From: Proteus columbae
GTDB lineage: Bacteria > Pseudomonadota > Gammaproteobacteria > Enterobacterales > Enterobacteriaceae
Assembly: GCF_009914335.1 (NCBI RefSeq)
Contig: NZ_CP043925.1
Coordinates: 186,001 to 250,000 of the forward strand
Reading direction: 5' to 3'
DNA length: 64,000 nt
In this document: positions 43,613 through 47,182 of the stretch, piece after piece
Position numbering within the stretch: the first letter of the stretch is position 1
Layout of the letters: each line of letters opens with the position of its first letter
The notes under the pieces: model-generated
What the model was told of the DNA's origin: nothing
Database searches by the model: none
The model's input: the letters and a program-made list of their open reading frames with translations, nothing else
Translations under genes and position numbers: made by a program

Positions 43613-44158
43613 ATGTCAAAAAGCGAGAACAATCTGATCTGGATAGATCTGGAAATGACAGGTCTTGATCCTGAATGTGACCGTATCATCGAAATTGCCA
43701 CTATCGTGACAGATCCTCAACTTAATATTTTAGCCGAAGGCCCTGTAATTGCAGTACACCAATCTGATGAACAATTAAGTTTAATGGATGAATGGAATAC
43801 ACGTACCCATACTGGTAGTGGCTTAGTTGAGCGCGTAAAAAACAGTTCATATGATGATAATTCAGCACAAAAAGCGACAATTGAATTCCTAGAAAAATGG
43901 GTACCAAAAGGCGTATCACCTATCTGTGGTAATAGTGTGGGGCAAGATAGACGTTTTCTATACCGTTACATGCCAGAGCTAGAGCAATATTTTCACTACC
44001 GTTATCTTGATGTGAGTACATTAAAAGAATTAGCACGTCGTTGGAAACCTGAAATTTTAGAAGGTTTTGAGAAAAAAAATACTCATCAGGCATTGGATGA
44101 TATTCGTGAATCTATTGCAGAGCTAGCTTATTATCGTAAAACCTTTATTAAAGAGTAA
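43613..44158 (+). CDS. orn: Oligoribonuclease
   Basis: DEDDh 3'-5' exonuclease that degrades 2-5 nt RNAs including pGpG; essential in E. coli. Exo I is [12 protein letters not shown], Exo [15 protein letters not shown] region with [10 protein letters not shown], and Exo [13 protein letters not shown]. It has 181 residues, identical in length to the E. coli enzyme. Directly upstream of the glyVXY tRNA operon. Confidence 0.97.
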
Positions 44159-44246
44159 AAAGCGTGCATTCATGATTGATATTGCATCATTATGATGATT
44201 TTATCGGCATGTAATCAAAAAAACGTATTTTTTTGTTGATAAGGGC

Positions 44247-44274
44247 TTGCGGTTAAGCATTTTTCTCGTATAAT
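44247..44274 (+). promoter_or_regulatory. Promoter of the tRNA-Gly operon
   Basis: TTGCGG (44247-44252), 16-bp spacer, TATAAT (44269-44274), then a GC-rich discriminator GCGCTTCCC. A leader hairpin CCCGTAC/GTACGGG (44281-44287 with 44306-44312) precedes the first tRNA. Confidence 0.75.
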
Positions 44275-44324
44275 GCGCTTCCCGTACCGATGAAGAATTT
44301 CGTTTGTACGGGTGTAAGAAAGAC

Positions 44325-44400
<76 letters not shown>

Positions 44401-44436
44401 ATCTTTCTTAGACAGTTATTAGTAGTGTTATGCGAC

Positions 44437-44512
<76 letters not shown>

Positions 44513-44547
44513 AATCTTTCATTTATAATTGTCAAAACTTACCAAAT

Positions 44548-44623
<76 letters not shown>

Positions 44624-44668
44624 AGTTTTTCTCTTCTAGTTTTATTCTTCTAATCAAAAATCAATACG

Positions 44669-44995
44669 TTATCCTAATAGTCTACGGCTAAGTAGCGCTT
44701 TCATATCTCGTCTACCATCAGTAATGACGTAAATAATAATTTGTTGTCCTAATACTCTGTAAATCACCCGATAGGGTTTAAATAGAATTTGTCGAAATTC
44801 ACGAATACCTAACGTTTGTAATTCATTAGGAACAGTTCCCTTCTTTGGAAAATTAGTTAAATTGTCTGCTACTGCTAGTAACTCATCTAATACATAATCT
44901 GCATTTTCTGGGCAGTCATGTTCAGAAATATAGTTATGAATATTTTCTAAATCTGCCTCGGCATCTTTAGTAACTACGACCTTGTATGATGCCAT
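44669..44995 (-). CDS. ParE/RelE-superfamily toxin
   Basis: Toxin of a type II toxin-antitoxin pair. The 108-residue small basic protein has the family pattern: an N-terminal strand ASYKVVVTKDAEADL, two helices (ENIHNYISEH, NADYVLDELLAVADNL), then REFRQILFKPYRVIYRV, IIIYVITDGRRDM and LLSRRLL. The C-terminal Arg/Asp pattern is closer to ParE than to mRNA-cutting RelE, so the target (gyrase or ribosomal mRNA) is not decided. Starts 5 nt after the antitoxin stop, clearly one operon. Confidence 0.88.
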   Translation of the reverse strand: MASYKVVVTKDAEADLENIHNYISEHDCPENADYVLDELLAVADNLTNFPKKGTVPNELQTLGIREFRQILFKPYRVIYRVLGQQIIIYVITDGRRDMKALLSRRLLG

Positions 44996-45000
44996 TCTTT

Positions 45001-45270
45001 CTACTTCCTTTTATTTTTTAAACGCTGAACAACACTTTTTATATCACTGACTTCGCCTGATTCAACTTGTTGTTGACCTAATGCTAATATTTTCAGTAGA
45101 GCTAACATTTCCTGAGTTTCTTCATAAGATTCAATATCTTGAATGACTGCTTTAGCTTCGCCATTTTGAGTAATAATCATAGGGGAGCCAGATTCGGTAA
45201 GTTTTACCATTACTTCAGCCATATTGGCCTTTAAATAGCTAATTGGTTTAATTTGTTCTGAATAACGCAT
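45001..45270 (-). CDS. Phd/YefM-family antitoxin
   Basis: Antitoxin for the downstream ParE/RelE toxin. The Phd/YefM DNA-binding N-terminus is YSEQIKPISYLKANMAEVMVKL followed by the family block PMIITQNGEAKAVIQDIESYEE. The charged C-terminus would wrap the toxin. The ATG at 45270 has GGAGG 5 nt upstream; the ATG at 45282 lies before that Shine-Dalgarno and is unlikely. 89 residues. Phd proteins repress their own operon, and a palindrome lies just upstream. Confidence 0.88.
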   Translation of the reverse strand: MRYSEQIKPISYLKANMAEVMVKLTESGSPMIITQNGEAKAVIQDIESYEETQEMLALLKILALGQQQVESGEVSDIKSVVQRLKNKRK

Positions 45271-45281
45271 ATTCACCTCCA

Positions 45282-45329
45282 TAAATTAAGTCTTAATTTA
45301 GACCAAAAAAAGACTATGCTCGCTAGTCT
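45282..45329 (-). promoter_or_regulatory. Operator palindromes of the toxin-antitoxin operon
   Basis: TAAATTAAG-T-CTTAATTTA (45282-45300) is a perfect 9-bp-arm palindrome 12 bp before the antitoxin start. A second inverted repeat AGACTA-N7-TAGTCT lies at 45311-45329. The layout is that of Phd-type autorepression with two operators; this is inference from position and symmetry. Confidence 0.6.
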
Positions 45330-45745
45330 AATAATGTGTAGCCTAAAATACAACCAAAAAAAATCTTCATTTATTCTCTCGCTTTTTTAAATATCGACTA
45401 CACTGTTTTAGGGTGCAGATTAGGGAATTTTACTTAATACTCGTAAAGAGAGTGTGTTGGATTATTGTTCAAAAAAGAAAATGTCATTAATACATGTAAG
45501 ATCAAGCTATTTTTTTGTGATCTATCTTTGATCTTTGCTTGCATTTCTATTTTGACAGCACTAGAATGTGCGCCTTTCCTCATTTCGAGGGGAAATTAGA
45601 GGCAAGATCATTTTTTAGGTTTCAGGCCTTTATTCTGTTAAACATGCATTGAATAGTATTTTAGAAAAAGAAAAGGGTTTCTCAGGCTTTTCTTTAAAAA
45701 AACGTGATATATATTCTACTATTCTTAAAATCTTCCCAAATCGAT

Positions 45746-45754
45746 TTATCCACA
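45746..45754 (+). promoter_or_regulatory. DnaA box 1 (TTATCCACA)
   Basis: Perfect match to the strong DnaA consensus. Part of a three-box cluster. Confidence 0.75.
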
Positions 45755-45810
45755 GTGAGATGCTAATAACCACTGCATCTAAGCACTATTTATTTTTTTA
45801 CTGCACAGAG

Positions 45811-45819
45811 TTATCCACA
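45811..45819 (+). promoter_or_regulatory. DnaA box 2 (TTATCCACA)
   Basis: Second perfect 9-mer in the same orientation, 65 bp after the first. Confidence 0.75.
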
Positions 45820-45856
45820 AGCACGTATCATTAAGTGATAAGGATATTATTCTCTT

Positions 45857-45869
45857 CAATAAATTGATT
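45857..45869 (-). promoter_or_regulatory. IHF site in the DnaA-box cluster
   Basis: CAATAAATTGATT is an exact match to YAANNNNTTGATW, the reverse complement of the IHF consensus. E. coli datA needs an IHF site for its function. Confidence 0.6.
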
Positions 45870-45974
45870 GGATTTTATATCTAATTGATAACTAAGTTTA
45901 TTTTAATTTTTTAAATTTTGAGTCTTAGTTCGCTTGAATTTTTTTTTCATGTTGATAGGCAAGGGATTTTTATT

Positions 45975-45983
45975 TTATTCACA
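45975..45983 (+). promoter_or_regulatory. DnaA box 3 (TTATTCACA)
   Basis: Matches the relaxed consensus TTATNCACA, same orientation as boxes 1 and 2, 106 bp after the IHF site. Confidence 0.6.
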
Positions 45984-46027
45984 GAGGAAATTAATGGTTA
46001 TTCGTAATGCGTTTATCCTGTTAAAAA

Positions 46028-47182
46028 TTAAGCGTCACGAGGTAAGCCTTTAGTTATCGCCCTTACTAAGCGTTTTTGTTGTGAAGTCTGTATTTTTACT
46101 TCTTTTTCATTTCTCTTCGCTGTCTGCTGTGCAATCGCCCAGTTTAAATGTTCATCTAAAACATCACTCAATCCAAAGCGTTCTTGCAAGGCAAGTATAA
46201 TTTTATCTTGATAAGGTGCATTTCCTAACGCCACGCTAATATTTCTAAGCCAACGTAAATAACCAATACGGCGGATCGGCGAACCTTCAGTGATACGCAG
46301 AAATTTATCTTCATTCCATTGAAAGAGATCGAGTAATTCTGGGGTATGAAGTGCTCTTCTTGGTGAAAAATCTTCTTCGTCAGTCAGTGATGAAAAACGA
46401 TTCCAAGGACAGATAAGCTGGCAATCATCACAACCATAAATGCGATTACCCATTAGAGGGCGAAATTCTTCAGGAATAGCACCATCGAGTTCGATAGTGA
46501 GATAAGAAATACAGCGACGAGCATCAATAGTATAAGGTTCAACAATGGCACCTGTCGGACAGGTTGTCATACAGGCGACGCATTTACCGCATTGCTCTTC
46601 AACTGGGCTATCAATAGGTAACGGCAAATCAATCAGTAGTTCACCAAGGAAAAACCAAGAGCCTGCTTGATTATTAATAACAAGTGAGTGTTTACCAACC
46701 CAGCCAAGTCCTGCCTTAACAGCTAATGGGCGTTCCATAATAGGGGCTGAATCAACGAAAGGACGAAAGTTGACTACCCCTTGATATTCAAATTGCTGAC
46801 AATATTGTGAAATTTTTTCGCCGAGTTTTTTAAGACGCTGCCTTAATACTTTGTGATAATCTCGACCAAGTGCATAACGGCTGATATAGCCTTGTTCTGG
46901 GTTATTTAAGGTTCGTGCAAAAGCCGCATCCGTGGGGAGATAATTCATTCTGACACTGATAACGCGTAATGTACCCGGAACCAGCTCATGAGGTCTGGCT
47001 CGTGTCATTCCATACTTTTCCATCCATGCCATTTCACCATGATATTGCTTATCTAACCAAGCTTGCAGGCGAGGTTCTTCAAGTGATAAGTCAGTATCAC
47101 ATATCCCTGTTTGTTGAAAACTTAGCTCAGAACCCCATAATTTAATGTTTTGAGCGAGAAGATTAAGATCGAGTGATGACAT
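46028..47182 (-). CDS. queG: Epoxyqueuosine reductase QueG
   Basis: Last step of queuosine synthesis on tRNA: cobalamin-dependent reduction of epoxyqueuosine. Two [4Fe-4S] clusters are bound by CGKCVACMTTCP and by the GCDDCQLICPW cysteine set. The catalytic-domain block RPFVDSAPIMERPLAVKAGLGW is present. The C-terminal HEAT-like helices end in KGLPRDA. 384 residues. In E. coli nnr follows divergently; here the next plus-strand gene is tsaE. Confidence 0.97.
   Translation of the reverse strand: MSSLDLNLLAQNIKLWGSELSFQQTGICDTDLSLEEPRLQAWLDKQYHGEMAWMEKYGMTRARPHELVPGTLRVISVRMNYLPTDAAFARTLNNPEQGYISRYALGRDYHKVLRQRLKKLGEKISQYCQQFEYQGVVNFRPFVDSAPIMERPLAVKAGLGWVGKHSLVINNQAGSWFFLGELLIDLPLPIDSPVEEQCGKCVACMTTCPTGAIVEPYTIDARRCISYLTIELDGAIPEEFRPLMGNRIYGCDDCQLICPWNRFSSLTDEEDFSPRRALHTPELLDLFQWNEDKFLRITEGSPIRRIGYLRWLRNISVALGNAPYQDKIILALQERFGLSDVLDEHLNWAIAQQTAKRNEKEVKIQTSQQKRLVRAITKGLPRDA

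Follow-up and report, generated by a model that had tools for sequence, protein, structure and literature searches.

In Escherichia coli, the datA locus lies between the glyVXY tRNA genes and queG, and its boxes 2 and 3 for DnaA, both in the same orientation, enclose an IHF-binding site (IBS). According to the excerpts available from PMC5742627, the order box 7-box 2-IBS-box 3 is essential for hydrolysis of DnaA-ATP. The spacing between the IBS and the boxes has been reported to matter, and box 4 has been described as stimulatory but not essential, as far as the excerpts from PMC10380432 go. Furthermore, the accessible part of PMC10950094 reports that read-through transcription from the glyVXY promoter (PglyVXY) regulates datA and is required for IHF to depart from it; removal of PglyVXY, or insertion of a terminator behind glyY, led to more IHF binding at datA. 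The conservation of datA among E. coli strains is treated in PMC4585315, and that of DARS2 over species in PMC4245941 and PMC8682772 (excerpts in each case). In the literature at hand, partly in excerpt, we came across no description of datA from Proteus or related bacteria, nor of a separate promoter before datA; other papers may treat its conservation.

Results

The present study deals with a 64-kb stretch of a Proteus chromosome, called the window hereafter, in which a preliminary description had proposed a datA equivalent between glyVXY and queG. The segment very probably represents datA in Proteus, orthologous to the E. coli locus, judging by synteny, by the order, orientation and spacing of its DnaA boxes, by their conservation across the order Enterobacterales, and by the distance from the presumed oriC, which together support the proposal well. 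The gene order orn-glyVXY-datA-queG is common to the Proteus locus and E. coli, so that the segment occupies the place expected of datA. On the left, a promoter recognized from its sequence (44247 to 44274, plus strand; TTGCGG-N16-TATAAT followed by GCGC) precedes three tRNA-Gly(GCC) genes (glyVXY, 44325 to 44623, plus strand), which both ARAGORN and the Rfam tRNA model identify; orn lies further upstream as well. On the right, queG (46028 to 47182, minus strand) matches E. coli queG and is 99% identical to that of Proteus columbae, a match that marks the genome as a Proteus. No credible gene was found from the end of an antitoxin open reading frame (45282) to queG, in line with the gene-free stretch of the preliminary description. 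If oriC is the mioC-mnmG-like interval, the locus is 312 kb from it (7.6% of the genome), i.e., close to the origin.

The three DnaA boxes of the preliminary description were found again in one orientation, all on the plus strand: box 1 (45746 to 45754) and box 2 (45811 to 45819) both read TTATCCACA, and box 3 (45975 to 45983) reads TTATTCACA. A weak site, TACTGCACA, with two misfits, lies beside box 2 at 45799 to 45807 (plus strand) and is equated by its position with the low-affinity box 7 of E. coli. All four sites are identical in 20/20 Proteus genomes, in agreement with the expectation that the boxes be kept in close relatives. The distance from box 2 to box 3 is 164 bp in the window and in 17 of the 20 genomes altogether, and 165 bp in the other 3. 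For comparison, we used the glyVXY-queG interval of E. coli 536, which is the datA locus according to the excerpts from PMC10950094 and PMC5742627. Counted from its box 2, this interval has an exact match to the IHF consensus at +65 and TTATTCACA at +161, and a weak box likewise stands beside box 2; the corresponding Proteus distances, 67 and 164 bp, agree within 2 to 3 bp. The two loci differ in box 1, which is perfect in Proteus but reads ATATCCACA in E. coli 536, and in box 4, which in E. coli datA is inverted and lies beyond box 3. No such inverted box-4-like site was found within about 40 bp beyond box 3 in any of the 20 Proteus genomes.

Two IHF consensus-like sites lie between boxes 2 and 3. 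The preliminary description had pointed to an exact match to WATCAANNNNTTR on the minus strand at 45857 to 45869; the match is indeed there, but it is not the conserved one. Among the 20 Proteus genomes it is exact in 9, carries 1 to 2 mismatches in 8 and 5 to 7 in 3, and owing to this poor conservation it was rejected as the datA IBS. The homologous predicted IBS lies 21 bp further on (45878 to 45890, minus strand); it reads TATCNNNTTGATA in 20/20 Proteus genomes, a single base away from the strict consensus WATCARNNNNTTR, whereas the E. coli 536 site is exact. Its offset from box 2 is E. coli-like, and since spacing is reported to be important in E. coli, this favors 45878 to 45890 as the IBS. 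At offsets of 62 to 69 from box 2, an IHF match with at most one mismatch was present in 41/58 genera, against 6/406 background windows. Both sites may bind IHF, and the genome encodes IHF alpha and beta, both above the NCBIfam cut-offs. Between the IBS and box 3, a further block, CTTG-N-TTGA-N-CAA (45929 to 45962), is conserved in a 58-row alignment. It was considered as a terminator or RNA structure and rejected, as the 58 rows gave no consensus fold and 12 single folds disagreed; nor did any recognized site fit the block in this alignment.

The boxes had been said to be improbable by chance, which holds for their clustering and not for their number, the latter being near the random expectation. 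The window contains two perfect boxes against 0.80 expected (two or more occurred in 16 of 100 shuffles), nor is it enriched in the relaxed box TTWTNCACA (13 versus 10.3 expected). Genome-wide, perfect boxes (69) are barely more frequent than the reversed pattern (62). The listing of these 69 boxes includes five pairs within 250 bp, compared with about 0.3 expected at random by simple arithmetic from the 69 boxes, and the datA pair is the only one of the five with both boxes in one orientation. Besides, the pattern TTATCCACA-N142-160-TTATNCACA has a single match in the 4.11-Mb genome, at datA, and its reversed control has none. Three of the other four pairs, whose neighbors were named by eye, lie in the mioC-mnmG-like interval (the oriC candidate), before a mutH-like open reading frame (the DARS2 candidate) and before an nrdD-like one. 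The candidate oriC and DARS2 thus resemble datA in their tight pairs of perfect boxes, but differ from it in the opposed orientations of the boxes and in their neighbors. Directly before the nrdD-like frame, a tight cluster at C1:316129 to 316204 comprises two perfect boxes and one TTATACACA.

The arrangement is kept across the order. A box 2/box 3 pair (TTATCCACA/TTATNCACA, 154 to 165 bp apart) adjoins queG in 116 of the 122 Enterobacterales loci compared, which overlap in part, and four of the six loci without this standard pair have box 2 and a box 3 with one misfit. In L120 (genome G069) and L153 (G032), no DnaA box cluster was seen in the stretch adjoining queG. The 122 loci comprise 41 named Enterobacterales loci, E. 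coli 536, the window, 19 further Proteus genomes and 60 other family genomes, these last being taken from 91 with QueG matches, with the window's own genome and G082 counted apart. Some genomes are counted twice among them: L108 equals L197, L110 equals L171, L111 equals L230, and L002 is probably L089. For Proteus and for three related genera designated g90, g13 and g138, counts per genome therefore replace the merged-locus counts, and L192 and L193 were dropped, being second matches in two genomes that L191 and L190 already represent. Genus labels (Xenorhabdus for g13, Photorhabdus for g138, Morganella for g93) were assigned by eye from likeness to the named loci, and to call g90 Providencia is a guess. 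The end of the box-7 site together with box 2, ACAGA[CG]TTATCCACA, is exact in 41/41 named Enterobacterales loci. The same sequence adjoins queG in 21/22 Vibrionaceae loci (L045 to L080) and in 0/17 other gammaproteobacterial loci. The remainder of the Vibrionaceae locus has another arrangement, in most cases with an inverted TGTGGATAA or TGTGAATAA nearby and TTTTCCACA further on; it is possible that this locus represents a rearranged datA, as far as its sequence tells.

A toxin-antitoxin pair (44669 to 45282, minus strand), outside datA, separates glyVXY from the datA segment in the window, as had been described. It consists of a ParE-like protein (44669 to 44995; Pfam PF05016) and a Phd/YefM-like protein (45001 to 45282; PF02604), and matched no defense system listed by PADLOC. 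The insert is sporadic, being present in 4/20 Proteus genomes (that of the window, G149, G150 and G156); alignment of the remaining ones to the window breaks at about 44645 and picks up again at about 45356. The tRNA genes are 1.1 kb from box 1 in the window, against about 0.4 kb where relatives lack the insert. In a genome of a different genus (L154, G034), what by eye resembles the beginning of the same Phd-type antitoxin gene is situated a short way upstream of datA.

On datA's side of the insert we found a predicted second promoter of the tRNA class, P2 (45539 to 45574, plus strand; TTGCAT-N17-TAGAAT-GTGCGCC), a new element that the preliminary description had missed. As the insert is upstream of P2, it parts datA from glyVXY and not from P2. 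Sequence and conservation identify P2 as a stable-RNA-class promoter, presumably active, that faces datA, with no tRNA gene and no credible open reading frame in between. P2 was likened to the form of the glyVXY promoter, TTGCNN-N16-TATAAT-GCGC; both TTGC and TATAATGCGC occur in 91/93 extracted glyVXY promoters, the extraction having itself required TTG and a hexamer resembling a -10 element. A strict P2 pattern, TTGC-N19-[CTG]A[GT][AT]AT at 60 to 420 bp upstream of box 2, was present in 20/20 Proteus, 24/24 g90, 28/28 Xenorhabdus-like (g13) and 12/12 Photorhabdus-like (g138) genomes, i.e., 84/84, and in 8/24 other loci with no tRNA-Gly genes within 300 bp. On the opposite strand it occurred in 0/118 loci, and in dinucleotide shuffles in 19/2360; the P2 patterns were devised after inspection of the loci, and these controls speak for specificity rather than independent discovery. 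An initial pattern had missed 1 of 66 loci (L210), which the strict one recovers. A looser pattern, widened afterward to admit variants already seen, matched in 17/23 genus groups (opposite strand 0/115, shuffles 41/2300, 360 bp further upstream 8/112; three loci with less than 300 bp upstream of box 2 omitted) and was absent from Pragia, Limnobaculum (L035), G034, G046, G113 and G148. Therefore, such a promoter is not universal at loci with displaced tRNA genes. That the strict pattern occurred in 0/62 tRNA-adjacent loci says little, because the interval from the tRNA to box 2 is short there.

In g90, the -35 and -10 elements of P2 are invariant in 24/24 genomes amid a largely free, diverging spacer and leader, as selection on the promoter itself predicts. 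Against this stands a generic sigma-70 scan, whose output does not include P2. We also considered whether the region is a multi-copy stable-RNA promoter and rejected this, as the genome holds no second copy and the next best match is 19 bases long. Several further features were seen by eye. In Photorhabdus and G057 (L007, L111 and L126), apparent remnants of a tRNA-Gly 3′ end and a shared TGTTGAATCAATGAA lie between P2 and datA. G014 retains a P2-type promoter in front of a tRNA-Gly gene that adjoins datA. In the 1.6-Mb genome G080 (L163), the tRNA-Gly genes appear to have been lost, with orn, datA and a glyVXY-type promoter behind orn remaining. As to its history, the likeliest reading of these sequences is that P2 is a promoter that has outlived its tRNA gene.

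Three GATC sites (45500, 45519 and 45530; span 45500 to 45533), in steps of 19 and 11 bp, lie just upstream of P2. They stand at -39, -20 and -9 from its -35 element in 20/20 Proteus genomes with the same spacing, and the 11-bp pair is kept in 24/24 g90 genomes. In the window, 11-bp GATC pairs occur only twice among 194 GATC sites, and three or more sites fall within 129 of 63,940 60-bp stretches. Few or no GATC sites lie near P2 in Xenorhabdus-like loci (none in 32/33), in Photorhabdus-like loci (none in 14/15) and in Morganella, for which one locus was scored. SeqA and Dam are both encoded in the genome.

Discussion

We hold it highly probable that the segment at 45.74 to 45.99 kb is the datA of this chromosome, with an E. 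coli-like mechanism, as homology implies, and with P2 as its likely source of transcription. By analogy with E. coli, IHF would bend the DNA at 45878 to 45890 and bring DnaA-ATP on boxes 7 and 2 together with that on box 3, whereupon DnaA would hydrolyze its ATP and re-initiation would be restrained. Where the tRNA genes are distant, P2 would serve to supply the transcription by which datA is kept free of IHF ahead of initiation; the same analogy indicates that it probably provides the read-through transcription of datA in Proteus. With the read-through control described for glyVXY (PMC10950094, in the part available) it shares an upstream promoter of the stable-RNA class directed into datA. 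The E. coli promoter, however, makes tRNA, whereas the predicted P2 is followed by no tRNA and is placed downstream of both glyVXY and the toxin-antitoxin insert. Proteus datA thus differs from that of E. coli in its more distant tRNA genes and in a separate promoter with GATC sites. These observations suggest that transcription of the site may be part of datA control.

Other readings were weighed against this one. That the boxes are a chance cluster without function has next to no probability: although the box counts, in the window and in the genome, are near random, the order, orientation and spacing of the boxes are conserved across the order and their arrangement occurs once in the genome, and this conservation already disfavors chance. 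It is very unlikely that the locus merely titrates DnaA and does not promote the hydrolysis of DnaA-ATP. Such a role would accord with the older view of datA found in the excerpts from PMC5835720 and with the single mismatch of the Proteus IBS; yet the position of the IBS and the box 7-box 2-IBS-box 3 order are kept in Proteus.

The remaining alternatives concern P2. The core could be datA and P2 could drive an undescribed small RNA from the stretch that runs from 45575 to box 1, its effect on datA being incidental. This we consider improbable, though worth keeping in mind, since conservation extends over about 50 bp behind P2 in the Xenorhabdus-like g13; a short inverted repeat also follows the presumed start in g90. 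On the other hand, the g90 leader shows little conservation otherwise, in contrast to its invariant promoter, and no terminator-like site was found in a scan of 44100 to 46100. An RNA family between glyY and queG was looked for in Rfam without success, the four matches obtained being the three tRNAs and a sub-threshold YrlA overlapping them. Unlikely, too, is the idea that P2 is a functionless leftover of a tRNA-Gly gene that was lost or moved. The apparent tRNA-Gly ends in Photorhabdus and G057 and the G014 promoter, noted by eye above, are what it would lead one to expect; a functionless relic would hardly be expected to keep its -35 and -10 elements in every g90 genome while spacer and leader diverge, or its pattern throughout the genomes of four genera.

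The GATC sites invite a speculation about timing. Soon after initiation, the passage of the replication fork would leave the GATC pair beside the -35 element hemimethylated, and SeqA would bind there and silence P2. Transcription of datA would then stop, IHF would bind and DnaA-ATP would be hydrolyzed; on remethylation, P2 would become active again and IHF would be expelled ahead of the next round. That SeqA times P2 is a guess, and we doubt that P2 is a dedicated timer promoter of datA silenced in this way by GATC hemimethylation and SeqA after fork passage. If it were, the activity of datA in Proteus and g90 would be coupled to fork passage, and the timer would there be a candidate for the 'unidentified factor' mentioned in the available part of PMC10950094.

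Taken as a site defined by its sequence, datA is extended here from E. coli to nearly every examined locus of the order. Where the tRNA genes have moved, four well-sampled genera, and several others though not all, retain a tRNA-type promoter before datA. This retention lets the recent claim that datA is controlled by transcription through it be tested against evolution. If P2 acts on datA, read-through transcription would be part of the locus and not a by-product of the tRNA operon, and the growth-rate control of stable-RNA promoters would be wired into the timing of replication.
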